DNA of 64,000 bases from the NCBI RefSeq assembly GCF_020171525.1, contig NZ_JAIVAI010000001.1:62001-126000 (forward strand), in the 5' to 3' direction. Both the position numbers and the translations under genes were made by a program. This document shows positions 4,437 through 63,106 of this stretch, piece by piece (position 1 is the first letter of the stretch; every line of letters starts with the position of its first letter). This DNA comes from Halobacillus yeomjeoni. GTDB lineage: Bacteria; Bacillota; Bacilli; Bacillales; Halobacillaceae. Below the pieces are notes generated by a model. The model did no database searches and was not told the DNA's origin. It was given only the letters and a program-made list of their open reading frames with translations.

Positions 4437-4466
4437 AGCCACTATGAAATCTTCATAGTGGCTTTT
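4437..4466 (+). terminator. Rho-independent terminator after the pspA cassette
   Basis: A 12-bp perfect stem (AGCCACTATGAA and complement), 3-base loop and TTTT run. It is followed 11 bases later by the first repeat element of the window. Confidence 0.88.
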
Positions 4467-4484
4467 GTTAAAGTTTTTATAATT

Positions 4485-4758
4485 GGCTCTGTTAAAGTTT
4501 AGTGTTGATATATCCATCAAAAAAAGAGCATTACGAAATGTTTGTATGCGTGTAGGGCTCTGGGAAAAGGTTCGCTTTCCATGGGGCGGGCGCTGAGTCT
4601 CCTCAAGGAATAACGCCTTCCGGGGCCTCAACTGCCCCGCACGTCCCATAGGAGTCTCCCGATTCCCCGCAGCCTCTCCGCTCATATCGATATAAACTCT
4701 TCAACTATTATGTCCTTATTTTGAAGACTAAATATCAACAATCAACTTTAACAGAGCC
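4485..4758. mobile_element. MITE-like element, copy 1 (274 bp)
   Basis: The ends are inverted repeats of about 28 bp, about 25 of them matching, starting GGCTCTGTTAAAGTT. They are flanked by an exact 8-bp duplication TTATAATT (4477-4484 and 4759-4766). The GC-rich core has the pattern CTTTCC..GGG..GAGTCTCCTC...CGCCTTCCGGGG...GGAGTCTC shared with three other places in the window. No transposase or credible coding region is present. GGCTCT ends and 8-bp AT-rich duplications are typical of ISL3-family insertion sequences, so it is probably a non-autonomous derivative. It sits between the cassette terminator and the promoter of the next gene. Confidence 0.85.
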
Positions 4759-4797
4759 TTATAATTAGTAAGCGGGCAGTTGATGGTGAATCTATCC

Positions 4798-4827
4798 TTG
4801 AAACGGACACAATAAAGAATTTATAAA
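4798..4827 (+). promoter_or_regulatory. Predicted sigma-A promoter of the aminopropyltransferase gene
   Basis: TTGAAA (4798-4803), 18 bp, TATAAA (4822-4827), about 30 bp before the chosen start. It gives the gene its own transcription despite the terminator and MITE upstream. Confidence 0.45.
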
Positions 4828-4855
4828 GCTATTCTTGCAAAATGGAGTGAAACGC

Positions 4856-6406
4856 GTGGAAGCAGTCAACATAAAGAAAAGTCATGTCATCTACTGGGCA
4901 TCAGGTATTGTTTCCATCTGTGGCATCATTTTTGAGGTGTTATTCGGTGCACTAGGATCTTACATTTTAGGTGATGGTGTTAAACAATATACGTTGACCA
5001 TAAGTTTATTCTTAACGGGTATGGGGATAGGTGCCAGCATAAGTGAACGGGTAATGAAAAATTTGATCCTCACCTTCGTTTGGATTGAATTTATGGTCGC
5101 TTTAATCGGTGGTTTTTCCAGCTTCACTATGTTTGGTATGACCGCCTTTGCCCCCGATGGCACGGATGCCTTGTTTTTGTATCTCATCACTTTTACTATC
5201 GGAGCTCTTACAGGGCTTGAGCTTCCTATATTAATAAGGAAAGCGAATGAAATTGGTGAGAAGTTGAACCGAAGTACAGCACGAGTATTATTTTCTGATT
5301 ATGCAGGTGGATTGATCGGAGGATTGCTTTTCGCCTTTTACCTTAGGCCTCAGATGGGCATGGTGAAGAGTGCATTTTTTGTAGCGTGTATCAACCTGGC
5401 GGTGGCTGTAGCCATACTATACTATTTCCGTAATGAAATTAGAAAACTGGGAATCCATATAACTGCAGCACTTATTATCGGTGTATTGTTAGTTGCGGGG
5501 CTTTTCTTCGGGGAGGAGATGGCTTTTTCTTTTGAGCAGAAGCTATACAAAGACCCGATCATTCATATGGAGGAAAGCAAATATCAAAAAATAATTCTTA
5601 CTAAAGAGCAAGGGGACACAAGAATGTTTTTGAATGGTTCCCTTCAGTTCAGTTCGTCAGATGAATATCGTTATCATGAAACACTTGTCCATCCTGCTGT
5701 GTCGTATGTTGAGAATCCAAAGAATGTCCTTGTTCTTGGTGGAGGAGACGGCATTGCAGTGAAAGAAGTATTGAAGCACGATGAGGTGGAAAACATTACA
5801 TTGGTAGACCTGGACCCAGCGGTGACCAGGCTGGCTGAAACAAATTACCACCTTCTACAGTTAAACGAAGGTTCATTGAAAGATGAACGTGTTCAGGTAT
5901 TGAATAAAGATGCCTTTCGTTTTCTGGAAAAAACAGAAGATTTTTATAATGTCATCATTATAGATTTACCTGATCCTAATAATGAAAGTTTGAATAAATT
6001 GTACACTAGAGAGTTTTATTCATTGGTAAGAAACCACCTTCTGCCTGGGGGGGCTGCAATGGTTCAAGCAACCAGCCCTGTCTTTGCAACAGATGTGTAT
6101 TGGACGATCAGTGAGACGGTAAAGTCTGCAGGGTTACATGTTGAAAATCTTCATGTAGATGTCCCGAGCTTTGGAAATTGGGGCTTCGTAATGGCAGGGA
6201 GAGAACCTATAGATTTGACGGAAGTCAATATAGAAACAAAGACTGAATTTTTAACAGATGAGCTGCTGCAATTGATGACAGTGTTTGGAAAAGATGAAGA
6301 CAGGGAAATCGTAAACATTGAAGGCGAAGTGGTTCCATTGGAGCCTAACACCTTAATCGACCCTCATCTTATTCAAAAATATGAAAAAGCATGGCAGCAT
6401 TACTAG
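4856..6406 (+). CDS. Membrane-anchored polyamine aminopropyltransferase (spermidine synthase-like)
   Basis: A 516-residue fusion. The first about 210 residues form roughly seven hydrophobic segments; the rest is a spermidine synthase fold. The SAM-type nucleotide loop reads VLVLGGGDGIAVKEVL. The substrate gate has SSSDEYRYHETLVHP, and the catalytic aspartate region reads DLPDPNNESLNKLY. Reaction expected: aminopropyl transfer from decarboxylated SAM to a polyamine near the membrane. SpeD at 38398 would supply decarboxylated SAM. The GTG start at 4856 has GGAGTG 6 bases upstream. Such fused enzymes recur beside pspA and DUF350 genes, so it belongs to the cassette although a MITE separates it. 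Confidence 0.85.
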   Translation: MEAVNIKKSHVIYWASGIVSICGIIFEVLFGALGSYILGDGVKQYTLTISLFLTGMGIGASISERVMKNLILTFVWIEFMVALIGGFSSFTMFGMTAFAPDGTDALFLYLITFTIGALTGLELPILIRKANEIGEKLNRSTARVLFSDYAGGLIGGLLFAFYLRPQMGMVKSAFFVACINLAVAVAILYYFRNEIRKLGIHITAALIIGVLLVAGLFFGEEMAFSFEQKLYKDPIIHMEESKYQKIILTKEQGDTRMFLNGSLQFSSSDEYRYHETLVHPAVSYVENPKNVLVLGGGDGIAVKEVLKHDEVENITLVDLDPAVTRLAETNYHLLQLNEGSLKDERVQVLNKDAFRFLEKTEDFYNVIIIDLPDPNNESLNKLYTREFYSLVRNHLLPGGAAMVQATSPVFATDVYWTISETVKSAGLHVENLHVDVPSFGNWGFVMAGREPIDLTEVNIETKTEFLTDELLQLMTVFGKDEDREIVNIEGEVVPLEPNTLIDPHLIQKYEKAWQHY

Positions 6407-6437
6407 GTGAGGTCAACTAAAGAAAAGGAGTGGTAGA

Positions 6438-7118
6438 GTGAAAGTATCTTATCATGGACATTCAGTTGTGAAGGTAGAAGCGAATGGAAAGACCATCTTA
6501 ATTGATCCATTCATTTCTGAAAATGGCAATACGGACTTAAATGCAGATGAAGTGCAAGCGGATGTGATTTTATTGACTCATGGTCATAATGATCACGTCG
6601 GTGATACTTTTAAAATCGCTGAGCGCAATGATGCCCAAATCATCGCTCCTTTTGAATTGGCTACGTACTTAGGTAACAAAGGATTGAATGCACACCCGAT
6701 GCACATCGGAGGGGGACATCAGTTCGATTTTGGTCATGTCAAGTTCACACAAGCTTTCCACGGTTCAGCTTATACCGAGGAAGATGGCACGATTGTTTAT
6801 ACGGGAATGCCGGCAGGGATCCTTTTAACCATTGATGGAAAAACGATTTATCATGCCGGTGACACCGGATTGTTCTCTGACATGAAGTTGATTGGTGAGC
6901 GGAATGATATCGATCTTGCTTTCCTCCCTATTGGTGATAATTTCACGATGGGACCTGAAGATGCACTGACTGCTGCAGAGTGGATCGGTGCGAAACAGAC
7001 GGTTCCGGTTCACTACAACACCTTCGACTTAATTAGCCAGGATGGTGAAAGCTTTGCAGGAAAAGTGAATGTCGGTAAAGGTTTAGTTATGGAGCCTGGT
7101 GATTCCTTAGAGCTTTAA
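6438..7118 (+). CDS. ytkL: UPF0173 metal-dependent hydrolase
   Basis: A 226-residue metallo-beta-lactamase-fold hydrolase of the YtkL/UPF0173 type. The metal motif [12 protein letters not shown] lies near residue 45. Further ligands are probably in YHAGDTG (near 138) and VPVHYNTFD (near 190). The true substrate of this family is not established. The GTG start at 6438 follows AAAGGAG with 7-base spacing. It lies 31 bases after the aminopropyltransferase gene and could be cotranscribed with it. A very strong hairpin follows. Confidence 0.9.
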
Positions 7119-7126
7119 TATCAACT

Positions 7127-7176
7127 AAAAAACCACCCCTCATTGCCTTTGTACGCAATGAGGGGTGGTTTTTTTA
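7127..7176 (+). terminator. Rho-independent terminator after ytkL
   Basis: A 20-bp stem (AAAAAACCACCCCTCATTGC and its complement) with an 8-base loop, ending in seven T. The A-rich 5' arm means it could also work on the opposite strand. Confidence 0.95.
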
Positions 7177-7272
7177 GAAATTTATTGGAAGAAATTGCAG
7201 TGAATCTGTATCAATTGTATAATAACAATAATACGGATAGTGACTAGTACAGTCAGAAAGTTTGGTGGACAG

Positions 7273-8586
7273 ATGGCTACAAAACACGAACAAATACTCC
7301 AACATATTGAATCGCTCTCTGTCGGAAGTAAAATATCTGTGCGTCGGATAGCTAAAACCTTGAATGTCAGTGAAGGTACAGCTTATCGTGCTATAAAAGA
7401 AGCTGAAAATCAAGATTTAGTAAGTACGATGGAGCGAGTCGGAACAATTCGCATAGAAAAGAAAAAGAAGGAAAACATTGAACGCTTAACTTTTGCTGAA
7501 ATTGTCAATGTAGTGGATGGACAAGTTCTCGGAGGACGAGAAGGTCTGCATAAGACATTAGGTAAATTCGTAATCGGCGCTATGAAGCTGGAAGCGATGA
7601 TGCGGTATACAGAAGCAGGGTCATTGTTGATTGTCGGAAATCGAACGAATGCCCATGAGCTTGCCGTCCAAGAAGGAGCTGCTGTATTAATCACTGGAGG
7701 GTTCGATACCAGTGATACAGTCAAGAAACTGGCCGATGAAAAGAAACTTCCTGTTATTTCGACGAGTTACGATACTTTCACTGTAGCTACCATGATCAAC
7801 AGGGCTATTTATGATCAATTGATTAAGAAAGAGATTGTTTTAGTAGACGATATCTATACTCCTTATGAAAGGGCTAAGTTCCTACAATCAAAGGATACGG
7901 TACAAGCGTGGCATGATTATAACCAGGAAACAGAGCACAGCCGTTACCCGGTCGTCGATCAACAAAACCGCGTAGTAGGAATAGTCACTTCTAAAGATGT
8001 GATCGGAAAAGACAAAGACGTGCTTATTGACAAAGTGATGACCCGTAACCCGATGGTCGTCCATACGAAAACCTCGCTGGCGAACGCAGCGCACGTCATG
8101 GTATGGGAAGGAATAGAGCTGATGCCTGTCGTCGATCATTCCCATAAACTGAAAGGTATTATCTCAAGGCAGGATGTCCTGAAAGCGCTCCAGCAGATTC
8201 AAAGACAGCCTCAAATTGGTGAAACGATTGATGATTTGGCGACAAACCGGCTGGAGATCATTGAGACTGGAGAAGATTCTCATTTATTGAAAACTCAAGT
8301 GACACCTCAAATGACCAACCAACTTGGAACAATGTCCTATGGAGTTTTCGTATCATTGATTACAGAGTCCTCAAGCAGGTTGTTAAGGAAGTATAAAAAG
8401 GGAGATTTAGTTGTGGAAAACATCTCTGTATACTTTATTAAGCCGGTTCAGATCGAAAGTGAAATTGAAATAAAACCCCAGATCCTTGAGGTTGGCAGAA
8501 AGTTTGCCAAGGTTGATGTGGAGGTTCATCACGAAGGAGCGATCGTAGGAAAGGCTCTTTTGATGGCTCAGTTGATAGATAGGTAA
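7273..8586 (+). CDS. ytoI: YtoI-type regulator: HTH, DRTGG, two CBS domains, hot-dog domain
   Basis: A 437-residue protein. It has an N-terminal GntR-like helix-turn-helix (ISVRRIAKTLNVSEGTAYRAIKEAE, about 20-45), then a DRTGG domain to about 185. Two CBS domains follow (about 190-310, with YPVVDQQNRVVGIVT and LMPVVDHSHKLKGII). A C-terminal thioesterase-like hot-dog domain completes it. CBS domains usually bind adenine nucleotides, so an energy- or nucleotide-sensing transcription factor is likely; targets are unknown. The ATG at 7273 is preferred over the in-frame GTG at 7240 because the family begins MATKHEQIL. Neighbours match the ytkL-ytoI-ytpI order of B. subtilis. Confidence 0.9.
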   Translation: MATKHEQILQHIESLSVGSKISVRRIAKTLNVSEGTAYRAIKEAENQDLVSTMERVGTIRIEKKKKENIERLTFAEIVNVVDGQVLGGREGLHKTLGKFVIGAMKLEAMMRYTEAGSLLIVGNRTNAHELAVQEGAAVLITGGFDTSDTVKKLADEKKLPVISTSYDTFTVATMINRAIYDQLIKKEIVLVDDIYTPYERAKFLQSKDTVQAWHDYNQETEHSRYPVVDQQNRVVGIVTSKDVIGKDKDVLIDKVMTRNPMVVHTKTSLANAAHVMVWEGIELMPVVDHSHKLKGIISRQDVLKALQQIQRQPQIGETIDDLATNRLEIIETGEDSHLLKTQVTPQMTNQLGTMSYGVFVSLITESSSRLLRKYKKGDLVVENISVYFIKPVQIESEIEIKPQILEVGRKFAKVDVEVHHEGAIVGKALLMAQLIDR

Positions 8587-8590
8587 TAAA

Positions 8591-8621
8591 AAAAGTCGCT
8601 GCTTTTATGCAGCGACTTTTC
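8591..8621. terminator. Bidirectional terminator between ytoI and ytpI
   Basis: A 12-bp perfect stem (AAAAGTCGCTGC and complement) with A-run and T-run on its two sides. It serves convergent ytoI and ytpI; the ytpI stop codon lies just beyond it. Confidence 0.9.
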
Positions 8622-8622
8622 A

Positions 8623-8925
8623 TTAGGATTGTGTTTTAGATTGTAACTTCTGGTACTCTTTCCGGTAATGTTTGCTGGCCTTCCAACCTGATTGAGCTTG
8701 GAATATTCCTAAAACCAAAAACAAAAGACCGATGAATAACGAAAGTTTCGTCTGGTAAAACACATATTGATTGATGCCGAAGAAGAAAATGAAACTACCT
8801 AAGAATACCTTGGATTTGCTGTTAAGGTAATCTTGAGTCAGCGGGTCCTTCGTACGGATAATCATGACCTTATAGTAAATATAAAGGACTAGTGAAATGA
8901 CAATGAATAAAGGTAAAATAAACAA
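8623..8925 (-). CDS. ytpI: YtpI family small membrane protein
   Basis: A 100-residue membrane protein with three hydrophobic segments: about 2-20, 38-55 and 60-78. It carries the YtpI features YYKVMIIRTKDPL and FFFGINQYVFYQTKLSLFIG and ends in a charged tail. It is divergent from nrnA and convergent with ytoI, as in B. subtilis. Function unknown. Confidence 0.85.
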   Translation of the reverse strand: MFILPLFIVISLVLYIYYKVMIIRTKDPLTQDYLNSKSKVFLGSFIFFFGINQYVFYQTKLSLFIGLLFLVLGIFQAQSGWKASKHYRKEYQKLQSKTQS

Positions 8926-9049
8926 GCTAGATCGACTCCCGGAGTTGATTTTTCTCTTCTATATTGTAGCTTGTTTTATTTGAAATGGCTACCTGTAAAG
9001 TGAAATCTATGATTTAATGTAAAGACTAAGATAAAAAGGAAGGGTTCCT

Positions 9050-9997
9050 ATGAGTAGAAAAGAAATCGTGAAGCTGATTGAAGAATTCAATACGATCATT
9101 ATCCACCGTCATGTCAGGCCTGATCCGGACGCATACGGCTCCCAGGGTGGGTTAGCTGAAATCATCCGTTCCAACTTCCCAGATAAAGAGGTGTGGATGA
9201 CCGGTGAGCAGGATCCATCATTAAGTTTTCTCGCTGTGATGGATCAAGTACCTGATGAGGCTTATCAAGATGCATTGGTCATTGTTTGTGATACAGCCAA
9301 TCAGGCTAGAATAGATGACCAGAGATATTCGAATGGTCAAAAGCTTATAAAAATCGATCATCATCCAGAAGTGGATTTTTATGGGGATGTACAATGGGTA
9401 GATACGACAGCGAGTTCTACTTGCGAAATGATCTTTCATTTATTCGAAGAGTTCGAGAAAAAAGAAGCTTCATTAAGTGAAGAAGCAGCCCGCTTGATCT
9501 ATGCAGGGATTGTTGGGGACACAGGTCGCTTTTTATTTCCGAGTACAACTCAAAAAACATTGTCAATTGCAGCAAAACTGGTGAATTATGCATTTGACCG
9601 ACCTGCTTTATATAACCAGATGTATAAGACGCCGATGCATGTAGCAAAGCTGAAAGGATATATTCTCCAGAATTTTGAACTGAATGAAGAAGGCTATTCT
9701 ACGATAAAACTATCAAAAGAAGTGCTGAAGCATTATGGTGTAACGGCTTCAGAGACCAGCCAATTGGTAGGATTACTTGGAGATATTGAGGGGATTTTAT
9801 CCTGGGTGTTTTTCGTGGAAGAAGAAGAAACCATACGTGTACGTCTCCGTTCAAAAGGTCCTGTCATTAATGGCATCGCAGCGGAACATAATGGAGGCGG
9901 TCACCCTATGGCTGCCGGTGCGAAAGCCTCCACATGGGAAGAAACGGAAGAGATTGCAGCTAAGCTGAAACAGGTTTGCAAAGAATATAAAAAATAG
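9050..9997 (+). CDS. nrnA: Oligoribonuclease / pAp phosphatase NrnA
   Basis: A 315-residue DHH-DHHA1 phosphoesterase. The manganese site is visible in order: HVRPDPDAYGSQ (about 20), VCDTA (about 80), KIDHHPEVD (about 103) and GDTGRF (about 160). The C-terminal DHHA1 motif GGGHPMAAGA lies near 285. NrnA degrades 2-5 nt RNA fragments and converts 3'-phosphoadenosine 5'-phosphate to AMP, so it joins RNA turnover to sulfur assimilation. The ATG has AGGAAGG about 7 bases upstream. It stands alone between the divergent ytpI and convergent ytrI. Confidence 0.95.
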   Translation: MSRKEIVKLIEEFNTIIIHRHVRPDPDAYGSQGGLAEIIRSNFPDKEVWMTGEQDPSLSFLAVMDQVPDEAYQDALVIVCDTANQARIDDQRYSNGQKLIKIDHHPEVDFYGDVQWVDTTASSTCEMIFHLFEEFEKKEASLSEEAARLIYAGIVGDTGRFLFPSTTQKTLSIAAKLVNYAFDRPALYNQMYKTPMHVAKLKGYILQNFELNEEGYSTIKLSKEVLKHYGVTASETSQLVGLLGDIEGILSWVFFVEEEETIRVRLRSKGPVINGIAAEHNGGGHPMAAGAKASTWEETEEIAAKLKQVCKEYKK

Positions 9998-10028
9998 CAG
10001 TTACTTACTTAACTCAGTTCTACTCTTT

Positions 10029-10529
10029 TTATCGTACGATTTTAATCTCTAAATTGAAGTGGATGATTTCAGAAACGATAAGCTTTTTTACTTTTAACTG
10101 ATAAGTGAAATCATCCACTACATAATTTTTGCTTTCAATGGCCGTGATCATCAAGTCGACTTGATCTGCTACTACTCTCAAATCCTTCCCTGTTACGGAT
10201 TTGAGCTGGTCTTTGACCAAGGAAGATAATTGATGCTGAGTCAACAAGTCAACTTCGAGTTTCTTAGCATTATCAAATGCCAGAGAAATTTCCAGTACCC
10301 TGATGGATTTTACACCTTTCTCCTGACTTTTTTGGTTGAGTAACCCTTGATATTTGGCTTCCAGTTGATTCAACTCTGAAGTAAGGGCGATGTGGTCTTC
10401 TGCATATTTTTCTTGTAATTGGCCGTGAATGAATAAAAAAAACATATACCCTGCTATGATTCCCAGGAGTAACCCCGCAAAAAATTTTTTCCATTCTTTT
10501 TTTCGGAAGTCTTGGGGGATGTAAATCAT
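10029..10529 (-). CDS. ytrI: Sporulation membrane protein YtrI
   Basis: A 166-residue protein with a short cytoplasmic start, one membrane segment (about 18-36, LLLGIIAGYMFFLFIHG), a coiled-coil stretch and an extracytoplasmic domain. It matches YtrI, which in B. subtilis is made in the mother cell and needed for efficient sporulation. Its ATG overlaps the ytrH stop by 4 bases (ATGA), so the pair is translationally coupled. Confidence 0.85.
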   Translation of the reverse strand: MIYIPQDFRKKEWKKFFAGLLLGIIAGYMFFLFIHGQLQEKYAEDHIALTSELNQLEAKYQGLLNQKSQEKGVKSIRVLEISLAFDNAKKLEVDLLTQHQLSSLVKDQLKSVTGKDLRVVADQVDLMITAIESKNYVVDDFTYQLKVKKLIVSEIIHFNLEIKIVR

Positions 10530-10858
10530 GTCACTTCATCCCCAAGTAACCATTGAAACAAAAGAAAAGCGGTTTTAACTCCTCCCATAGCTGCAATAAT
10601 AATCATGACTTGTTTAAAAATATCAAAAGTCGAACCATCAAATATTCCCTTTTCAAAATTACTGATTGCATCAAATGTACCGCCGATAGCTGCGACAATT
10701 GCCCATATTCTCAGGCCCTTGGCAATTCTGTACATGGCTGTAAGAGGTGCTTCCCCTGTCATGAAACTTCCGATGCTTCCGATCAACGTCCCTCCTAAAA
10801 TCACCCCGAAAGCGATAAAGAAACACTGTAACATCGAAACGATTAAACGATCCTCCAT
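10526..10858 (-). CDS. ytrH: Sporulation membrane protein YtrH
   Basis: A 110-residue protein with about three hydrophobic segments, rich in glycine (GVILGGTLIGSIGSF, GLRIWAIVAAIGGTFDAIS). It has the form of YtrH, a sigma-E-dependent sporulation membrane protein. GAGGG lies 6 bases before the ATG on the minus strand. It is the first gene of the ytrHI pair, divergent from dnaE. No clear sigma-E promoter could be fixed by eye. Confidence 0.88.
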   Translation of the reverse strand: MEDRLIVSMLQCFFIAFGVILGGTLIGSIGSFMTGEAPLTAMYRIAKGLRIWAIVAAIGGTFDAISNFEKGIFDGSTFDIFKQVMIIIAAMGGVKTAFLLFQWLLGDEVT

Positions 10859-10997
10859 CTTGTCCCTCTTTCCGCCAAGTGATTTTGGTCCTTACGATGA
10901 AAATATTCCACAATGAGCACAATTATGCAGAAGGCAAGGCTTTAATGTGCTTATTCAAGTCGCTATAATTTAATTAACAAGAAAGTAGGTGAGAACG

Positions 10998-14363: not shown

Positions 14364-14368
14364 GGCTG

Positions 14369-43483: not shown

Positions 43484-43750
43484 TATTACTATTAATGGCA
43501 TTGAAGAGGACAAGAACACTAAGAGGCGCATGTTTAGAGAGAGGAGTCATCGGCTGAAAGCTCCTTCATGAACGACTTAGCTGTTTACCACCTTGGAGCT
43601 CTACTTATGAACGTCATCTAGTATTAAGTAGCGTCTGATCCGCGTTATGGATGAATGAAGCCGCAAAACTTTTGCGGGAAATTTGGGTGGAACCACGAGT
43701 GATAACGCTCGTCCCTTAGCATCTATGCTGAGGGACGGGCGTTTTTATTT
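43484..43750 (+). ncRNA. T-box leader of thrS (tRNA-Thr sensing)
   Basis: A stem I with a GGAG...CTCC pairing carries a specifier read as ACC (43587-43589) just before TTGGAGCTC. The T-box core TTTGGGTGGAACCACG (from 43682) has TGGA for pairing with an NCCA end whose discriminator is U. The terminator has arms 43705-43720 and 43727-43742 plus a T run. Uncharged tRNA-Thr should favour antitermination. Confidence 0.95.
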
Positions 43751-45948: not shown

Positions 45949-46090
45949 GGTAACTGAATGAACGGATCTAGAGACAAGTAGAAGCACCCGCTTCTCACCT
46001 GATCGACGCACTATGCAGTTGGCAGGTCATGAATCCTTTTGAACTTTAGGATACGTGTGGGTGCATTTCTATGTACCGACACTTTTTTTA
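45949..46090 (+). ncRNA. L20 leader (autoregulatory attenuator of infC-rpmI-rplT)
   Basis: The leader contains the family hallmark AAGCACCCGCTTCTCACC followed by TGATCGACGCA and GGCAGGTCATGAATCC. It ends in a terminator hairpin (GTGTGGGTGCAT / ATGTACCGACAC) with seven T at 46083-46089. In Bacillus, ribosomal protein L20 binds this leader and promotes termination when in excess. Confidence 0.93.
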
Positions 46091-46158
46091 TGACTTCAAA
46101 AGCTTGTCGATGACAGATCGTCAAATAGTTTTCTAAAATATGACGGAGGTGGCTCGAT

Positions 46159-47301: not shown

Positions 47302-47340
47302 AAAAAGTCATTTCCGATCGGTAGGAAATGACTTTTTTTT
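47302..47340 (+). terminator. Rho-independent terminator after rplT
   Basis: AAAAAGTCATTTCC pairs with GGAAATGACTTTTT around an 8-base loop, then a T run. The last two T are the start of the MITE target duplication. Confidence 0.93.
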
Positions 47341-47346
47341 ATACTT

Positions 47347-47668
47347 GGGTCTGTTATAGCTTGGTGTTGTTATTTCACATGTGAGGTCATATCAGCTCTT
47401 TCTGTCCTGGAATTTGTGTGAGGCGGCCTTTTAGAATGACTCCCTTTCCGTGGGGTACCGTGAGCCTCCTCAGGCTACGCCTTCCGGGGTCTCACGATGT
47501 ACCTTTATCCCACAGGAGTCTCGCCATTCTAAAAGGCCGCCTCTTCAAAGTAGGAGGGTCGGAAAGGCCATCCCATGCTCTGAGTGAATAACAGACTAGA
47601 CCCCTAAATTCCAGACGGGGACTATTTAGTAATCGTTTAAAATATCAACAACAGACTTTAACAGAGCC
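47347..47668. mobile_element. MITE-like element, copy 2 (322 bp)
   Basis: The left end starts GGGTCTGTTATAGC and the right end closes ACTTTAACAGAGCC. The exact 8-bp duplication is TTATACTT (47339-47346 and 47669-47676). Long inner arms pair (GAGGCGGCCTTTTAGAATG against its complement at about 47522-47545), so the whole element can fold as a hairpin. The core again has GAGCCTCCTC...CGCCTTCCGGGG...GGAGTCTCG. It has no coding capacity. It entered the T-tract of the L20 operon terminator, 14 bases before the ysdA start region. Confidence 0.88.
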
Positions 47669-47690
47669 TTATACTTATGGAGGTCGATCG

Positions 47691-48713: not shown

Positions 48714-48750
48714 AAAAAGCTGCCACAATCATTGATTGTGGCAGCTTTTT
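48714..48750. terminator. Bidirectional terminator between the TVP38 gene and ysdB
   Basis: A 17-bp perfect stem (AAAAAGCTGCCACAATC and complement) with a 3-base loop. Its T-tract is again the left edge of a MITE insertion. The 48586-48713 stretch before it shows no gene. Confidence 0.93.
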
Positions 48751-48756
48751 AATCTT

Positions 48757-49119
48757 GGCTCTAATAGTGGTTGGTGTTGTTATTTCCCATTAGAGTTTGA
48801 ATCAGTTCTTTGCTTCGTGAAATTCGTGTGTGAAGGCCTTGAGAATGATTCGCTTTCCGTGGTGCACTTTACTGACGCAATCCGGTGTAAAGCGGAGTCC
48901 GTAACACCAACTTGGAATGGGAGGGAAGGGAAAGCAGGTAGACTCCTGCGGGAAAAAGGAACAAGTTGGGACCCCGGAAAACGGAGTTTGAGGAGGCTCA
49001 GCGTTCCCCGCGGAAAGTGGACTGTTGTTCCCCCACACTCTATTTAAAGTGAGGGCCGCAATACCGCCACCCCTGAAGAGTGGAATTGTAAGAAATCCAC
49101 AACAGACTTTAACAGAGCC
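48757..49119. mobile_element. MITE-like element, copy 3 (363 bp)
   Basis: The left end starts GGCTCTAATAGTGG and the right end closes GACTTTAACAGAGCC. The exact 8-bp duplication is TTAATCTT (48749-48756 and 49120-49127). The GGGACCCCGGAA...GAGGAGGCTCAGCG core is inverted relative to its ends compared with copy 2. It forms a long hairpin from arms CGCTTTCCGTGG and CCGCGGAAAG. An open frame inside it is a repeat artefact. It lies between a bidirectional terminator and ysdB, whose stop codon falls in the duplicated target. Confidence 0.88.
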
Positions 49120-49515
49120 TTAATCTTTTAAAGGTTGGATGATTAAACGGTTTACCGGGTATTTCCAATCAATGGAAGCGTATGGGTAGCGGATCAGTAT
49201 TTCTTTTTCGAGAAAATACAAATCTTCTCTTTCAATCCCTCTTAGTTTTTCCGGATTTATCGCACTTACACTGATATTGACTACTTCAAATGAGTCATCA
49301 GTCGTGCCTAAATATTTTTCACCTTCAAAATCCACGCCTTTGTAAGTAATAAAGAAGTTTTCTTTCGTATCCTCTTTATTGTCATGGAAGTAAAACTCTT
49401 TCTTTTCTCTGGCCAGTTCAAGTTTTCTGTTGGGGTTTACAATGAATTTATAAGCTGTGTAAATGATAAAAATCACAGCGGCAATCAATAATAAACGGAA
49501 AAGAATGATGATCAT
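49120..49515 (-). CDS. ysdB: YsdB family membrane-anchored protein
   Basis: A 131-residue protein with an N-terminal membrane segment (MIIILFRLLLIAAVIFIIYT) and a charged soluble domain (KKEFYFHDNKEDTKENFFITY; ends NRLIIQPLKD). The length equals B. subtilis YsdB when the ATG at 49515 is used; AGGGAGAAGG precedes it on the minus strand. In B. subtilis ysdB is listed in the SigW regulon, and an ECF-like promoter is present here. Its TAA overlaps the target duplication of MITE copy 3. Function unknown. Confidence 0.85.
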   Translation of the reverse strand: MIIILFRLLLIAAVIFIIYTAYKFIVNPNRKLELAREKKEFYFHDNKEDTKENFFITYKGVDFEGEKYLGTTDDSFEVVNISVSAINPEKLRGIEREDLYFLEKEILIRYPYASIDWKYPVNRLIIQPLKD

Positions 49516-49550
49516 AAGTACCTTCTCCCTACCTGGGTTTATAGCATAAG

Positions 49551-49577
49551 TACGAATGAAGGTGTCGTTTCGTTTCA
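49551..49577 (-). promoter_or_regulatory. Candidate ECF (sigma-W-like) promoter of ysdB
   Basis: On the minus strand TGAAAC (49577-49572) and CGTA (49554-49551) are 17 bp apart, one more than the ideal SigW spacing, about 36 bp before the ysdB ATG. Confidence 0.5.
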
Positions 49578-49624
49578 AAAAATGATACATTATTTATGAA
49601 TTTTAATTGAAGGAGCTGCGTGGT

Positions 49625-52427: not shown

Positions 52428-52695
52428 ATAGTTGTATAGAAGTGAATAAATAAAAAGCGAAGAAAGAGCCCAGTAGGCGGTTGTAAATCGATTCAGGGAG
52501 GAAGCATCATAGACTGTAAGTGCTTCTATCGTGGCAATTGTTGAACTTTCACTCTGGAGCTGATCATGAAAACTGATCCGGGTATGTATACCCGTTATTG
52601 AACACGAAGTGGGCACAATTCATTGTGTCAACAAGGGTGGTACCGCGATTCGACTTTACAAGTCTCGTCCCTTTCCAGGGATGAGGCTTTTTTTA
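52428..52695 (+). ncRNA. T-box leader of pheST (tRNA-Phe sensing)
   Basis: Stem I carries the specifier TTC (52548-52550) just before ACTCTGGAGC, in the same place as the Thr specifier in the thrS leader. The T-box core AAGGGTGGTACCGCG has TGGT to pair with an ACCA end, as expected for tRNA-Phe. A terminator (GTCTCGTCCCT / AGGGATGAGGC with a T run ending near 52695) follows. Confidence 0.95.
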
Positions 52696-53754: not shown

Positions 53755-53766
53755 GGAGGAGATCAA

Positions 53767-56190: not shown

Positions 56191-56194
56191 TATT

Positions 56195-56229
56195 AAAAAG
56201 TGTGTTCCGATTTGGAACACACTTTTTTT
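56195..56229. terminator. Bidirectional terminator between pheT and rnhC
   Basis: A 14-bp perfect stem (AAAAAGTGTGTTCC and complement), 5-base loop, T run to the right and A run to the left. Confidence 0.93.
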
Positions 56230-56232
56230 GTA

Positions 56233-57165
56233 TTAAACCATCTTTTTCGCTTTTTGGGTGTTGGCAAAATGAACCTTAGCTATTTCTTCCAGCTTTGCTT
56301 CGCCGTAGTGCCGGATAACGCTCGCTGCCGCTTGATCCACTTTGGATGAGGCCCCTTTGGGTATCGGAAGTCCTGTGTCGAATTCCAGCTGATTCATAGC
56401 CTTTACAAAAGCGGATCGTGCAATGATTGAACCGGTGGCTACAGCAATGGAGTGACTCTCTGCCTTGGTCATGAAGTAGACGTTTTTCTGAAGCTGTAAT
56501 CCTTCACTCTTCAAGTGTTTTTTGTAAACTTCAGGCTGTGAAAATTGATCCACTAAAATACCTTCAGGTGTTTCAGGTGAAATTTTTTTCAATAGACGAT
56601 CGAGGGCTTGATGGTGGAGGATCGTTTTCATCTTTCCCTGCGACCATCCTTTTCTCTGCCATTGATTGTACTTGGTATTGTTAAGCCTGAGGAGACTGTA
56701 TGGTATTTTCATGGCGACGATTTGTTTAGCTAAATCAGTGATTTGAGCATCTGTCAGGTGTTTTGAATCTTTGACGCCTATGGATTTGAGAATAGGTATT
56801 TGTTCTTTGGTGACATAGGCAGCGGCTACTGTAATCGGACCGAAGTAGTCTCCTGTCCCGGCTTCATCCGATCCGATATGAGAACTTGTAAATAAAGTGT
56901 CCTCTGGATGGTACGCATGATTCGGAGATGAGGTTTTTCCGGTCTTTGTACCTGAAGCGGGGGCTTTCCCCCATTTGTCTGCTTCAACTTGCGGTTGGCT
57001 TCCTTGGAATAACACCTTTCCGGAGCGGTAGGCTGTAATCGTACAAGCGCTTGTTTTAGCTGCAAACATCGCATTTGCCGGAGTATTCGGTTTGAGTTGT
57101 TTTTTGTAGTACCCTTTCATTTCATTCAATTTGGAAGTGGAGAGTTTCAATACGACTTGGGGCAT
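56233..57165 (-). CDS. rnhC: Ribonuclease HIII
   Basis: A 310-residue RNase HIII, cutting RNA in RNA-DNA hybrids. The N-terminal TBP-like domain (about 1-80) has PQVVLKLSTSKLNEMKGYY. The catalytic domain has the first acidic motif IGSDEAGTGDYFGPITVAA near 92, and LVDQFSQPE, AESHSIAVATGSIIARSAF with the later carboxylates. The ATG at 57165 with GAAAGGAA upstream is preferred over an in-frame ATG 84 bases earlier. Divergent from zapA. Confidence 0.95.
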   Translation of the reverse strand: MPQVVLKLSTSKLNEMKGYYKKQLKPNTPANAMFAAKTSACTITAYRSGKVLFQGSQPQVEADKWGKAPASGTKTGKTSSPNHAYHPEDTLFTSSHIGSDEAGTGDYFGPITVAAAYVTKEQIPILKSIGVKDSKHLTDAQITDLAKQIVAMKIPYSLLRLNNTKYNQWQRKGWSQGKMKTILHHQALDRLLKKISPETPEGILVDQFSQPEVYKKHLKSEGLQLQKNVYFMTKAESHSIAVATGSIIARSAFVKAMNQLEFDTGLPIPKGASSKVDQAAASVIRHYGEAKLEEIAKVHFANTQKAKKMV

Positions 57166-57318
57166 GTGAATTTCCTTTCTTAACGAAAAATGATATCCAC
57201 AGTATAGCAAAATCACGGAATGAAGAGAACATTTGTGAAATACATCCATATTGGTTTCCTAATTCAATGCCTTCGTGTTAGTATTAAGTTTAGGATTGAG
57301 AAACTAGGGGGTATGGAC

Positions 57319-57594
57319 GTGTCGCAATCAGACCAAAAGAAAAAAAGAATTACAGTGGAGATCAATAAACGTTCTTACACTATAGTTGGTCACGAAGAGC
57401 CCCATCACATCCGTATGGTATCCAGTCTTGTGGATCAGAAGATGCGTGAAATACACGAAGCGAACCCCAGCCTGGATACGGCAAAACTCGCTGTTCTGAC
57501 CGCTGTGAATACAATGAACGAGTATATAAAACTTAAAGAAGAGTGTACGGAACTAATGAACTATATTGAAAAGAAAGAGAAAGAGGACGAGTAG
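57319..57594 (+). CDS. zapA: Cell division protein ZapA
   Basis: A 91-residue FtsZ-associated protein. The N-terminal beta strand region (KRITVEINKRSYTIVG) is followed by MVSSLVDQKMREI and LAVLTAVNTMNEYIKLKEE, which form the dimeric coiled coil. ZapA bundles FtsZ filaments. GTG at 57319 has AGGGGG 8 bases upstream, giving start MSQSDQKKKRI; the ATG at 57313 is too close. Followed by yshB after 4 bases. Confidence 0.9.
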   Translation: MSQSDQKKKRITVEINKRSYTIVGHEEPHHIRMVSSLVDQKMREIHEANPSLDTAKLAVLTAVNTMNEYIKLKEECTELMNYIEKKEKEDE

Positions 57595-57598
57595 GGTC

Positions 57599-58141
57599 AT
57601 GATTGATTTATTGCTGTTGTTTATTTTATTAGTCGGGGTTTTTGTTGGTTTAAGACGTGGATTCATATTGCAGTTATTTCATCTAATCAGCTTTATTATC
57701 GCTTTTGTTGTAGCAGTCATGTATTACGATGATCTATCACCTAAATTGACATTATGGGTTCCTTATCCAGAGTTACCTGAGGGGGCATCCTGGGCAATAT
57801 TCATAGATAGCTTGCCATTAGAGCAAGCCTTTTATAATGCAGTAGCCTTTGCTATATTATTCTTCTCGGTAAAAGTCATCCTACATATAATCGCTTCGAT
57901 GTTGGACTTCGTATCAGAACTGCCTTTATTGAACTCAGTAAATTCATTATTAGGCGGTGTACTAGGTTTTGTGGAAAACTATGTACTATTGTTTGTTTTC
58001 TTATACATAGCTGCACTTGTTCCTTTGGAAATGGTACAAAATGCTTTGGATGGATCTATTCTGGCACAGTTTATCATTGAGCACACCCCTGTGTTTTCAG
58101 AAAAGTTGAAAACCCTGTGGATTGAACATGTAGCTGGCTGA
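57599..58141 (+). CDS. yshB: CvpA family membrane protein YshB
   Basis: A 180-residue CvpA/YshB protein with four membrane segments: about 2-20, 24-46, 75-98 and 118-140. CvpA features VFVGLRRGFILQLFHLI and SVNSLLGGVLGFVENYVLL are present. CvpA relates to colicin V production in E. coli; the Bacillus role is unknown. It starts 4 bases after zapA and ends before a terminator. Confidence 0.88.
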   Translation: MIDLLLLFILLVGVFVGLRRGFILQLFHLISFIIAFVVAVMYYDDLSPKLTLWVPYPELPEGASWAIFIDSLPLEQAFYNAVAFAILFFSVKVILHIIASMLDFVSELPLLNSVNSLLGGVLGFVENYVLLFVFLYIAALVPLEMVQNALDGSILAQFIIEHTPVFSEKLKTLWIEHVAG

Positions 58142-58162
58142 CGGTTGATGTGATAATGAAGA

Positions 58163-58198
58163 AAGCCGCTATGATTTTGATCATGGCGGTTTTTTTAT
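58163..58198 (+). terminator. Rho-independent terminator after yshB
   Basis: A stem of about 13 bp with one mismatch (AAGCCGCTATGAT with the matching right arm) and seven T. Confidence 0.85.
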
Positions 58199-58231
58199 TC
58201 GGTACAACACTTGAAAGAGGAGACGATACGT

Positions 58232-59950
58232 ATGGCAATTGATAAAAAACAAGTGATCAAATTATTAGAAAAGATAGCTGTTTATTTAGAACTTAAAGGA
58301 GAAAATCCTTTTAAAATTTCTGCGTACAGAAAAGCTGCTCAAGCGTTGGAAAGAGATGATCGTTCTTTGAATGAAATCGAAGACTTCAAGAAAATGAAAG
58401 GAATAGGAAAAGGAACAGCTGCAGTAATCGATGAATACATTCAAAATGGTGAGTCAGATACCTTGAGGCAATTGCAGGCAGAAGTTCCGGAAGGGCTTGT
58501 TCCCCTGCTGAATTTACAAGGTCTCGGCGGAAAAAAACTGGCCAAACTGTATCAGCAGCTTGGGGTCATAGATGCAGAATCTCTTAAGGAAGCTTTGGAA
58601 AGTGGAAAAGTTGAACAGCTGGAGGGATTTGGAAAAAAGTCTGCAGAAAAAATGTTGAAATCTCTGGAAGAAGCCAATACAAGACCTGAGCGACTGCCGA
58701 TTGCGATGATGCTGCCATTGGCAGAAAAGATTGAGCAGTTCTTAGAAAATGCCTCGACTTTTTCCCGTTTTTCAAGAGCCGGCAGCTTAAGAAGAATGAG
58801 GGAAACGATAAAAGATCTAGACTTTATCATTGCTTCAGATCAACCATCCAAGACGAGGGATGAGCTGTTGGAATACCCTGAAATTAAAGAAGTTGTCGCT
58901 TCAGGAGAAACAAAAGTCTCCATCGTTGTCCATGAAGGCTATGATATTGGAATTGACTTCCGTATTGTAGCTCCTGAAGAGTTTGCCACTACCCTGCATC
59001 ATTTTACAGGGTCAAAAGATCATAATGTTGCTATGCGTCAGTTGGCGAAACAGCAGAATGAAAAAATCAGCGAATATGGCGTAGAAGATATAGATACTGG
59101 AGAGATTAAGACATTCGAATCAGAAGAGAGTTTTTTTGCTCATTTCGGTCTGCATTTTATTCCACCGGAAGCTAGAGAAAACAAAGGTGAAGTGGAACAA
59201 TTCAAAGAACCTGTCCGTTTATTGGAACAATCAGATATCCGGGGCGATCTTCATATGCACTCTACGTGGAGTGATGGTGCTCAGTCGATTAAGGAAATGG
59301 CTGAACAGGCAAAGGCGAAAGGCTATGAATTTATTGCCATCACTGACCACTCAAAGTATTTACGTGTAGCTAATGGTTTAAATGAAGAGCGCTTGAGAAA
59401 ACAGAGGGAAGAAATACAAGAAGTCAACAACTCTATGAAGGACTTTCATATATTCGCAGGAGTGGAAATGGACATCCTGCCAGATGGATCTCTTGATTTT
59501 GATGAAGAATTCCTGAAAGAAATGGATTTTGTAATAGCTTCCATCCATTCGAGTTTTTCACAGTCTGAAGAAAAAATCATGGAACGGATGAACGCAGCAC
59601 TTGAATCTCCTCATGTTCACATGATTGCCCACCCAACCGGGCGTCTGATCGGCAGGCGTGAAGGGTATGCAGTGAATTTAGAAGAATTGATTCAAGGAGC
59701 AAAAAGGACGGGGACCATTTTAGAACTAAATGCAAACCCGAATCGTCTGGATTTGAATTGGGAATGGCTGATGAAGGCTCAGGAAGAAGGGGTTGAAATT
59801 GCCATTAACACCGATGCGCACAGTTATCCAATGTTGGATCATATGGAGATTGGTGTTGGTACAGCTCGGAAAGGCTGGATTCAGAAAGATACAGTCATTA
59901 ACACCTGGACCAAAGAACAGCTGATGAAGAAGTTCGGAATCAAGGAGTAG
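58232..59950 (+). CDS. polX: DNA polymerase/3'-5' exonuclease PolX
   Basis: A 572-residue family X repair polymerase. N-terminal helix-hairpin-helix domains (GIGKGTAAVIDEYIQ near 57; GLGGKKLAKLYQQLG near 100) and palm with SRAGSLRRMRETIKDLDFI near 180-198, Asp pair included. The C-terminal PHP domain (about 335-570) has RGDLHMHSTWSDGAQS and AITDHS, with complete HxH metal ligands, unlike DnaE in this window. It acts in base-excision repair gap filling. ATG at 58232 has AGAGGAG upstream. It lies 21 bases before mutS2. Confidence 0.95.
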   Translation: MAIDKKQVIKLLEKIAVYLELKGENPFKISAYRKAAQALERDDRSLNEIEDFKKMKGIGKGTAAVIDEYIQNGESDTLRQLQAEVPEGLVPLLNLQGLGGKKLAKLYQQLGVIDAESLKEALESGKVEQLEGFGKKSAEKMLKSLEEANTRPERLPIAMMLPLAEKIEQFLENASTFSRFSRAGSLRRMRETIKDLDFIIASDQPSKTRDELLEYPEIKEVVASGETKVSIVVHEGYDIGIDFRIVAPEEFATTLHHFTGSKDHNVAMRQLAKQQNEKISEYGVEDIDTGEIKTFESEESFFAHFGLHFIPPEARENKGEVEQFKEPVRLLEQSDIRGDLHMHSTWSDGAQSIKEMAEQAKAKGYEFIAITDHSKYLRVANGLNEERLRKQREEIQEVNNSMKDFHIFAGVEMDILPDGSLDFDEEFLKEMDFVIASIHSSFSQSEEKIMERMNAALESPHVHMIAHPTGRLIGRREGYAVNLEELIQGAKRTGTILELNANPNRLDLNWEWLMKAQEEGVEIAINTDAHSYPMLDHMEIGVGTARKGWIQKDTVINTWTKEQLMKKFGIKE

Positions 59951-59971
59951 GAATAGAGGAGGCGGTCGAAG

Positions 59972-62323
59972 ATGAATCAGCGAATCCTTCATACATTAGA
60001 ATATAAAAAAATAATTGAGCAATTGAGTGAGCAAGCCGCTTCATCGTTAGGGAAAGAAAAAGTGCTTGCATTGAAACCTTCGTCTGATATAACTGAAGTC
60101 CGTCAATGGCAGATGGAAACAGATGAAGCCTCCCATGTTTTGCGTTTAAAAGGACATGTCCCTTTGGGGGGGATATTTGATATCAAGCCAAGCTTGAAAA
60201 GGACAACCATTGGTGGAATCCTCACAGCTTCAGAATGTCTCGAAGTAGCAAGCACCATCTACGGGGGCAGGCAGTTAAGGCGTTTCATAGAAGATATGGA
60301 AGAGCCGGAAATGCCGATATTGAGAGAAAAGGTCACAGAGGTAGAGCCCTTAAGACAATTAGAACAGAAGATTCGAAGCTGCATTGATGAACACGGAGGA
60401 ATCATGGATGGAGCTTCTGACCAATTACGCAGAATACGCTCAAAGATCCGTACGTATGAGAGCCGTGTGCGAGAAAAAATGGAAACTTACACAAAATCCA
60501 AAGCGAAGATGTTGTCTGATGCAATCGTAACGATAAGGAATGAACGTTATGTACTTCCTGTAAAGCAAGAATACCGGGGATCAATCGGTGGGATTGTTCA
60601 TGACCAATCTTCCTCAGGTGCAACGCTTTTCATTGAACCCCAATCTGTGGTTGAAGTTAATAACCAATTACAAGAAGCGAGAGTACAGGAAAAGCATGAA
60701 GTTGAAAGAATCTTGAAAGAGTTATCAGAAGCCATAGCAGAAGAAAATCAAATGTTGTATCACAATGTTACGGTATTAGGGCATATCGACTTTATGTTCG
60801 CAAGGGCAAAATTAGCTTCACAAATGAATGCTTCCATGCCGACTATGAATGATGATGGCTACATTAAAATGCAGCAGGCAAGGCATCCATTGATCGCTGA
60901 GGATGAAGTGGTTCCAAACGACATAGAAATCGGTAGAGACTTCACATCCATCGTTATTACTGGACCCAATACAGGTGGTAAGACGGTCACCCTCAAACTT
61001 GTAGGGCTTTGTACGTTAATGGCACAGTCCGGTTTACAAATACCCGCCTTGGATGGGTGTGAACTCGCGGTGTTTGATGAAGTTTATGCAGATATCGGAG
61101 ACGAACAATCGATTGAACAAAGCTTATCTACATTCTCCTCCCACATGACGAATATAGTGGATATATTGGACCGAGTGAACGACCGGTCACTCGTCTTATT
61201 TGATGAGCTGGGAGCAGGTACCGACCCTCAAGAAGGGGCGGCGCTTGCCATGTCGATTCTGGATGAAGTAGTTCAGAGAAATGCGCGCGTCATTGCTACT
61301 ACCCACTATCCAGAACTGAAAGCCTATGGTTATAATCGTGAAGGGGTAATCAACGCTTCAGTGGAATTTGATGTGCAGACACTGAAGCCTACTTATCGAT
61401 TGCTCATCGGAGTTCCAGGCAGAAGTAATGCTTTTGAAATTTCCAGAAGGTTAGGACTTGATGAGTCTATTATCACCTCGGCTAAACAACAGGTGGGTAC
61501 AGACTCCAGAAGTGTTGAAAATATGATCGCCTCCTTAGAAGAGTCCAAACGTGGGGCAGAGAAAGATTATGAGGAAGCAGAACAAATTCTTAAAGAAGCT
61601 GAAGATCTGAAAAAGCAGCTGCAAGATCACTGGTCTCAATTTGAAGAAAAAAGAGAAAAACTTTATGCCCGCGCTGAAGAAAAAGCTGAAAAGGCGATCC
61701 AAAATGCAAGGCAAGAGGCTGAAGATATCGTAAATGAAATTAGAAATATGAAATCACAGGCTGAGTTGAAGGAACATGAGTGGATCGAAGCCCGCAAAAT
61801 GTTTGATGAAGCAAAACCTCAACTGGCCAAAAAGAAAGCAAATCAAAAACAAGAACAATCTCCTAAGCAGGATACGAAAGAATTAAAAGCAGGGGACGAA
61901 GTGAAGCTGCTTACCTTGAACCAGAACGGTACAGTTGTCGAACAAACTTCTAAAAATGAATACCAGGTCCAAGTGGGCGTCATGAAAGTGAAGGCAAAAC
62001 GAAAAGAATTGGAATTCATCAAATCACCTCAACCCTACAAAGAAAAACCTATGGCGAAGGTGAAAGGGAAAGATTTCCATGTAAAAATGGAATTGGACCT
62101 CCGGGGAGAGCGCTATGAAGACGCATTGAACCGGTTGGAAAAGTATATTGATGATGCTTTATTAGCCGGATATCCAAGAGTCTCCATCATCCATGGAAAA
62201 GGTACTGGTGCTTTGAGACAAGCCGTACAAAATTACGCCAAGAATCATAGAAATATCTCCAGTCACCGTTCTGGAGGGATGAATGAAGGCGGAAGCGGCG
62301 TGACAGTTCTCGAACTTAATTAA
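59972..62323 (+). CDS. mutS2: MutS2 (MutSB) ATPase with Smr nuclease domain
   Basis: A 783-residue MutS2 without the mismatch-recognition domain. The ATPase has Walker [14 protein letters not shown] near 331, [17 protein letters not shown]-like [18 protein letters not shown] near 373 and Walker [15 protein letters not shown] near 408. A coiled coil (about 515-630) and a C-terminal Smr domain follow ([20 protein letters not shown] near 708, [11 protein letters not shown] near 745). In B. subtilis MutS2 acts on recombination and on collided ribosomes. GAGGAGGCGG lies close to the ATG. Confidence 0.95.
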
Positions 62324-62349
62324 ATGTCGATTCAAGGGAGCGGACGGAA

Positions 62350-62757
62350 ATGAATGGTTTTTGGGAATTCACATTAATCGAGACAGCAGCACGTTACAGT
62401 GTAGTCATTCTTTGCTTAATTGTCTTTATGGCAATCTTTGAAATCGTGACCTCCTACAATAATTGGAAAGAAATCAAAGGGGGAAACTTGGCAGTCGCAA
62501 TGGCTACAGGAGGAAAAATCTTTGGAATCGCGAACATCTTCCGTTATTCCATAGAACATAATGACTCTCTTCTTCAGACGATGGGATGGGGGATTTTTGG
62601 ATTTGTATTATTACTGTCAGGATACTTCATCTATGAATTCCTAACTCCTTCATTTAAGATTGATGAAGAGATTGCAGCAGACAACCGTGCTGTCGGATTC
62701 ATATCCTTAGTCATTTCTGTCGGTTTATCTTATGTCATCGGCGCGAATATCATTTGA
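62350..62757 (+). CDS. yshE: YshE, DUF350 membrane protein (second copy)
   Basis: A 135-residue DUF350 protein with four membrane segments: about 12-32, 52-68, 76-98 and 113-133. The conserved GGNLAVAMATGGKIFGIANIF and DNRAVGFISLVISVGLSYVIG match the DUF350 paralogue at 4029-4424 position by position. It lies 26 bases after mutS2 and shares its transcript. Here the neighbour is a 25-residue peptide gene rather than pspA. Function unknown. Confidence 0.9.
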   Translation: MNGFWEFTLIETAARYSVVILCLIVFMAIFEIVTSYNNWKEIKGGNLAVAMATGGKIFGIANIFRYSIEHNDSLLQTMGWGIFGFVLLLSGYFIYEFLTPSFKIDEEIAADNRAVGFISLVISVGLSYVIGANII

Positions 62758-62767
62758 GGAGATCGAT

Positions 62768-62845
62768 ATGGAAACATTAGCGAAAATATTAATGGTCGTG
62801 GCAGCATTATTCCTCATTGTCGGGGTGCTGTTCTTTATCTTATGA
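62768..62845 (+). CDS. 25-residue single-membrane-span peptide
   Basis: A short frame METLAKILMVVAALFLIVGV followed by LFFIL. It starts with ATG at 62768, and a good ribosome binding site GAGGAG (62756-62761) 6 bases upstream overlaps the end of yshE. The stop is followed at once by a strong terminator. The peptide is one hydrophobic helix with a short polar start. Close coupling to yshE suggests a small partner of the DUF350 protein. Not a family I recognise. Confidence 0.65.
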   Translation: METLAKILMVVAALFLIVGVLFFIL

Positions 62846-62893
62846 CAAAAAGCGTTCTTCACATCGAAGAACGCTTTTTGTTTTGTCTTTTTT
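62846..62893 (+). terminator. Rho-independent terminator after the mutS2-yshE-peptide run
   Basis: A 14-bp perfect stem (CAAAAAGCGTTCTT and complement), 7-base loop, then TTTTGTCTTTTTT. Confidence 0.93.
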
Positions 62894-62901
62894 GGGTTTT
62901 C

Positions 62902-63106
62902 GGTCTGATCCTTGCTTAGAGTATGGGAGGGAAGGAAAAACAGTCCGCTTGTCGCGGGGAACGCCGAGTCTCCTCGAACTTCATTCTCCGGGGTCTTCTA
63001 CGGTCCCCTGCGAAATGGAGTCATTCACGCCTCAAACAAATTCCAGGACAGGAAGAGCTGAGACGAACTTCCTTCTGAAATAACAACACCATGCAATACC
63101 AGAGCA
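62902..63106. mobile_element. MITE-like element, copy 4 (about 205 bp, decayed)
   Basis: The core has CGCGGGGAACGCCGAGTCTCCTCG, shown here as a pattern at about 62953-62976, then TCCGGGGTCTTC and a right end with AACAACACCATGCAATACCAGAGC. The complement of that end resembles the left end of copy 3. The left end is eroded (GGTCTGATCC) and no exact duplication is seen. It again sits just after a terminator T-tract. The rest of the gap up to the acyl-CoA ligase is AT-rich and holds its promoter. Confidence 0.65.

Follow-up and report, generated by a model that had tools for sequence, protein, structure and literature searches.

Insertions beside terminators in the window

The window analyzed here, a stretch of 64,000 nucleotides (C1:62001-126000 of the 3.27-Mb draft genome G000 of Halobacillus yeomjeoni, 15 contigs), contains four miniature inverted-repeat transposable elements (MITEs), and a predicted rho-independent terminator adjoins all four of them (Table 1). 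Our genome-wide counts indicated that terminators are an insertion hotspot for this MITE family. The first-pass annotation of the window had gone further and made insertion at terminators a property of four copies out of four; this holds inside the window, but a rule of "always in terminators" is wrong, with 25 of the 49 elements in our main genome-wide set lying beside a predicted terminator.

That the MITE family is real was borne out by copies 1 to 3, which possess both ends and exact 8-bp target-site duplications (TSDs; identical at 8/8 bases), whereas copy 4 (62902-63106) has a single recognizable end; this minus-strand end, at 63106, scored 28.6 bits, and the next-best minus-strand score in the window was -5.9. 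Copy 4 was taken as a decayed copy because a left end and a usable TSD were sought and neither was found. The TSDs of copies 1, 2, and 3 start 13, 0, and 1 bases from the start of the terminator tail, and the start position assigned to copy 4 by the first-pass annotation sits 19 bases from it, in agreement with the earlier statement that the copies begin within about 20 bases of a T-tract. The left TSDs of copies 2 and 3 (TTATACTT and TTAATCTT) lie inside terminator tails, as had also been noticed. Since the right TSD of copy 3 starts with the stop codon of a minus-strand open reading frame (ORF), this ORF kept its stop at the old place after the insertion. At rplT, the order of events could be traced for copy 2 only: the terminator preceded the element, because it was predicted at the same place in 20 of the 20 relatives examined, none of which had an IS1595-type end within 600 bases 3' of rplT (best score, -4.3, versus the two ends of copy 2 in the window genome).

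Table 1. Terminators, target-site duplications, and MITE copies at the four insertion sites (window coordinates)
Feature	Position	Strand	Remarks
Terminator stem-loop 3' of DUF350 gene (name per first-pass annotation)	4437..4463	+	tail from 4464; predictor, -16.6 kcal/mol
Copy 1 left TSD TTATAATT	4477..4484	.	exact repeat
MITE copy 1, 274 bp	4485..4758	+	IS1595-type ends, 44.7 and 42.2 bits
Core repeat (GAGTCTCCTC region) within copy 1	4531..4667	+	abundant in relatives also
Copy 1 right TSD TTATAATT	4759..4766	.	exact repeat
rplT terminator stem-loop	47301..47338	+	predicted; tail from 47339
Copy 2 left TSD TTATACTT	47339..47346	.	within terminator tail
MITE copy 2, 322 bp	47347..47668	+	ends 44.4 and 47.3 bits
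Copy 2 right TSD TTATACTT	47669..47676	.	exact repeat
Terminator stem-loop 3' of TVP38 gene (name per first-pass annotation)	48717..48747	+	predicted for both directions
Copy 3 left TSD TTAATCTT	48749..48756	.	within terminator tail
MITE copy 3, 363 bp	48757..49119	+	ends 34.3 and 36.3 bits
Copy 3 right TSD TTAATCTT	49120..49127	.	bases 1 to 3 form the stop codon of minus-strand ORF 49120-49590
Terminator stem-loop adjoining copy 4	62844..62882	+	predicted; tail from 62883
Decayed MITE copy 4	62902..63106	-	end at 63106 (28.6 bits); start per first-pass annotation

The MITE family, its parent, and its target motif

A genome scan for the end pattern GGCTCTGTTAAAGT that tolerated up to two mismatches gave 150 occurrences, compared with 17 for the reversed pattern. 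A sequence model of the ends gave at least 150 genome matches, all with E < 0.001, so that the actual total may be larger. Pairing of ends within 99 stretches of the genome yielded 61 elements, in which the TSDs were identical (37), differed at one base (12), or differed at two bases (12). The main set (n = 49) comprises paired elements with TSDs alike at 7 or 8 of the 8 bases and excludes the 12 two-mismatch elements. Since the pairing rule itself took TSD likeness into account and 60 strong single ends remained without a partner, the MITE figures rest on the best-preserved copies. The elements have the traits of MITEs, being short, devoid of a transposase gene, bounded by inverted ends and a target duplication, and present in many copies. 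The lengths of 60 of the 61 range from 104 to 581 bp, and these were counted as lacking a transposase gene because they are too short for a 1.05-kb gene (judged by length, not ORF by ORF); the remaining one, of 1079 bp, has a transposase relic. Folding of copies 1 and 2 was much stronger than that of shuffled sequences (z = -7.5 and -6.0), which is consistent with the self-folding proposed in the first-pass annotation, but a predicted terminator lies inside just 7 of the 61 elements, and the proposed role as spare terminators is therefore unsupported.

The GAGTCTCCTC core represents a distinct repeat that is very abundant in the genus: 21 of 21 genomes matched the copy, and 12 of 12 tested core loci in relatives (L070-L075 and L090-L095) were without an IS1595-type end. 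No Rfam family matched the core; for the MITE itself, Rfam gave no match at the gathering score, the rest being far below it (E of 0.11 or worse). Elsewhere in the genus, an end match at E 1e-5 was found in 4 of 10 genomes, with 12 matches altogether, and the burst of MITEs with IS1595-type ends is particular to the window genome among the 11 genomes examined. In the draft, contigs C3, C4, C6, C7, and C8 break off no more than a few hundred bases from copy-1-type elements, and assembly gaps may therefore hide longer copies, possibly ones that carry an intact transposase.

The parent of the MITEs is apparently an IS1595-family transposon, as judged by sequence comparison. The 1079-bp element (C2:10037-11115, equivalent to L061:2038-3116) has the exact TSD AATTTTTT and holds the only transposase relic found in the window genome, which matched no NCBIfam model. 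Of 44 genomes from the wider family, 8 contained a match to the relic, and two of these (G030 and G036) have ORFs of about 350 aa. Both intact transposases (2 of 2 scanned) matched the IS1595 model NF033547 (E = 1.1e-60 and 9.6e-63), as well as PF12762 above its cut-off; the 21 genus genomes, window genome included, had no match to PF12762. Locus L100, in a genome belonging to the same family, contains a complete element (1413-3031) that has the same ends as the MITEs (GGCTCTGTTAAA) and the exact TSD TTAAATAA; its transposase has an identical counterpart in Salimicrobium flavidum. All 11 transposases in the alignment share C56, C59, C86, C89, D164, and D244; we take the four cysteines to form the N-terminal zinc ribbon of IS1595-type enzymes and the acidic DD pair to be catalytic, the parent transposase being presumably of the DDE type. 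End pairs with 8-bp TSDs were present in 64 of 81 IS1595-type loci. The transposase family of the parent with its four-cysteine zinc ribbon, the 8-bp TSD, and the end sequence thus connect the MITEs to the IS1595 family, whereas the window genome yields a transposase relic only. A sequence search for relatives of the transposase with a solved structure gave none, the best match being to zinc fingers at E = 0.61. The ISL3 and IS1182 families, which had initially been proposed as parents on a presumed resemblance of their ends, were rejected for the window genome, as PF01610 and PF13751 had no match at E 0.001 in its 15-contig draft.

Two further observations concern the architecture of these transposons. 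The element at C2:10037-11115 also has a small lipoprotein-like ORF (recognized by eye; no model above cut-off) and a core-like inverted repeat near one end. The paired full-length IS1595-type elements (L206-L285) measure about 1.5-3.6 kb, compared with a transposase gene of about 1.05 kb, and many therefore have room for passenger genes.

The general target of the family is the palindromic motif YT|WWNNNNWW|AR. Among the 49 MITE insertions, T occupied position -1 in 44 and A position +8 in 44, and TSD positions 1, 2, 7, and 8 were A or T in 48; the same three counts were 59, 57, and 62 for 62 full-length IS1595-type insertions in other species. The "TTA...TT" target that had been read from the window copies fails for the family and is one case of this motif.

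Terminator adjacency against matched controls

Terminators were predicted with our own, approximate script (hairpin of -9 kcal/mol or better plus at least 5 T in 8), and an insertion was counted as adjacent when its TSD start lay at -8 to +20 of the predicted tail start. Gene calls likewise came from our own approximate scripts and were based on ORF length alone outside the window genome. The full-length set (n = 62) was drawn from 81 loci (the best 80 of 153, plus L100); 17 without an end pair were dropped, and L100 (a duplicate of L206) and L234 (a near-duplicate of L209) were removed.

Besides the 25 of 49 in the main set, 21 of the 37 elements with exact TSDs and 33 of all 61 paired elements were terminator-adjacent. 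Of uniform intergenic positions, 8.7% fell in the same range, as did 13.7-16.3% of AT-matched ones; the excess over the uniform positions persisted when distance window and energy limit were varied in five combinations. Controls matched for motif score gave an expectation of 8.6-10.2 for the MITEs, and of 11.5-12.1 for the full-length relatives across Bacilli, in which 27 of 62 were observed. Matching for both motif and T-tract raised these expectations only to 9.5-11.1 and 12.8, respectively. When the comparison was confined to gene 3' flanks under the same matching, 23 of 39 MITEs were adjacent versus 13.3 expected, and 22 of 32 full-length elements versus 11.6. Hairpins of -12 kcal/mol taken without a T-tract requirement also showed an excess (26/49 versus 9.4 expected for MITEs; 30/62 versus 13.7 for full-length elements). 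The genome-wide comparison that the first-pass annotation had called for was thus run, and the association survived against intergenic controls and repeated in independent full-length relatives.

A logistic model that included motif, T-tract, 3' and 5' flanks, and gene order was fitted on intergenic sites with a motif score of at least 4, which took in 41 of the 49 MITE and 45 of the 62 full-length insertions, with 1674 and 1041 control positions. The odds ratio for a terminator was 3.47 (1.6-7.5; P = 0.002) for the MITEs and 2.77 (1.3-6.0; P = 0.01) for the full-length elements. Once the motif was counted, the T-tract added nothing detectable (odds ratios of 1.02 and 1.19, not significant). 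The earlier suggestion that terminator structure or the T-tract guides target choice therefore stands in part: adjacency raises the odds about threefold, but the T-tract has no added effect, the motif is the strongest predictor, and about half of the copies lie elsewhere.

Target choice, survival, and comparable systems

The MITEs are probably mini-transposons of an IS1595-type parent whose insertion is directed by the motif, with an extra preference for terminators that comes mainly from target choice and to which survival contributes. An IS1595 transposase would act in trans on the ends GGCTCTGTTA.. of these non-autonomous elements, as the common ends of MITE and parent suggest, and would join them to the target with an 8-bp stagger, giving rise to the 8-bp duplication. 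Terminator tails, in which a T run is followed by A-rich DNA, often supply the motif, and terminators are for that reason favored on sequence alone. In addition, a motif beside a terminator hairpin is filled about three times as often as a comparable motif at other places; here, the inverted repeat and the AT tail may yield easily deformed, unpaired, or transcription-strained DNA, a hairpin step that we infer. Harmless insertions past the transcript end would then survive and add to the preference. We think that target choice makes the larger contribution and survival the smaller, with hairpin recognition and purifying selection not fully separated. A bolder version, which we offer tentatively and with some doubt, is that IS1595-family and, independently, ISL3-family transposases of the same order actively recognize intrinsic terminators as a safe harbor. 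The recognized feature might be a cruciform-prone inverted repeat, or paused or strained DNA at the transcript end.

Several observations weigh against our main reading. For about half of the insertions, no adjacent terminator was predicted. The odds ratio for a gene 3' flank was 7.5 for the MITEs and 2.9 for the full-length elements, as expected from selection. Where genes are arranged in tandem, 17 of 18 MITEs are located past the terminator instead of ahead of it, as selection would also give; the corresponding count for full-length elements was 9 of 16. The within-region test is weak because the motif nearly fixes the site inside one intergenic region: 23 adjacent MITEs were seen versus 20.6 expected in 34 regions (P = 0.006), of which only 3 were informative, and 25 full-length elements versus 21.1 in 35 regions (P = 0.004), of which only 9 were informative. 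The last three of these results would suit an account based on selection only, whereby the transposase uses YT(WWNNNNWW)AR anywhere and the survivors are mainly those just beyond terminators, where no transcript is disturbed. We nevertheless consider that account unlikely, since the terminator effect persists in a model that accounts for 3' flank and gene order, as well as in the comparison limited to 3' flanks. Moreover, convergent regions were not enriched (MITEs, 8/49 insertions versus 57/354 regions; full-length elements, 10/55 versus 36/181), which counts against simple selection for harmless regions, as this predicts enrichment, and divergent regions showed no significant depletion of insertions.

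Two other families bear on the same question. Ten of 18 paired ISL3-family copies from related genera of the same order (L328-L367) adjoin terminators, versus about 1 expected from score-matched controls; this sample came from 8 genomes, 7 of the 18 copies being from one, while 22 of 40 stretches gave no pair and a relaxed search added none that we trusted. ISL3 resembles the MITEs in its 8-bp AT-rich TSD and differs from them in its transposase (PF01610) and weak target motif (3.7 bits versus 7.8-9.5). That an unrelated AT-seeking family has the same association would be natural under selection, and the terminator habit may be common to such families, which fits convergent targeting and common selection alike. 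In contrast, none of 11 IS256-family copies was terminator-adjacent, which speaks against selection only, although this is a weak control with 11 paired of 36 loci examined, 8 of the 11 from one genome, 5 intergenic, and sites that are less AT-rich. The Fisher test gave P = 0.005 and 0.0016 with all 11 elements and P = 0.054 and 0.062 with the 5 intergenic ones.

A simpler proposal is that terminator tails merely hold the motif and have no other effect. The motif was indeed the strongest predictor in the logistic model (odds ratios of 2.1 and 1.8 per bit for MITEs and full-length elements), and 88% of the 49 MITE sites exceeded the 99th percentile of motif score. When control positions were weighted by motif with the real sites kept, the expectation was 26-28% in the MITE set and 40-59% in the full-length set, the latter leaving no excess, which likewise weighs against a terminator preference beyond the motif. 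With the real sites excluded, the weighting that we relied on, 16-20% was expected versus 44-51% seen, a contrast that may lean slightly towards excess since real sites were removed from the control. Together with the score-matched controls, whose expectation both sets exceeded more than twofold, this makes an effect of sequence only improbable. Just four copies lie in the window, and their position near terminators could in principle be an accident, but the genome-wide and cross-species counts exclude chance as an explanation for practical purposes.

If active recognition of terminators is confirmed, the IS1595- and ISL3-family elements would be a DNA-transposon counterpart of group IIC introns. 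Such introns are not known to have terminal inverted repeats or TSDs. Identity of the MITEs with them was rejected, given the 8-bp TSDs and inverted ends of the MITEs; no intron RNA was among the three Rfam gathering-score matches of the window and three loci. The likeness lies in terminator hairpins as sites: a DNA hairpin, for example that of a terminator, is described as a recognition determinant of group IIC introns in the portion of PMC3898094 consulted, where Robart 2007 is cited for insertion after intrinsic terminators. The introns are RNA-based retroelements, whereas the parent of the MITEs encodes a DNA transposase that leaves 8-bp TSDs. Enrichment near the 3' ends of genes is described for the short mobile repeats SPRITE, RUP, and BOX of pneumococci and is strongest for SPRITE, which resembles a terminator; the location of the repeats is put down largely to tolerance (PMC3049150, consulted in part). 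The MITEs described here differ in that they adjoin an existing terminator and are mostly not terminators themselves.

IS1595 and ISL3 elements are stated to be overrepresented between genes in tandem order (PMC9208149, consulted in part). Terminator association or targeting by IS1595 elements or these MITEs appeared in none of the matches listed, as far as titles and the starts of abstracts go, with ISfinder and subscription papers outside this scope; the consulted portion of the MITE review PMC10969869 does not name IS1595, and that of PMC2267715 holds nothing on terminator targeting. Preference for transcript ends would offer a DNA transposon an easy way of spreading while leaving genes intact, and it would account for the pile-up of such elements between genes. 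Whether target choice or survival prevails is a question common to many insertion sequences, and the target rule suggested here, a palindromic motif plus a hairpin, is precise enough for one transposition experiment.

Apart from the MITEs, the window holds three Rfam matches at the gathering score, two T-box leaders and one L20 leader (43492-43719, 45970-46094, and 52451-52675), which are ordinary.

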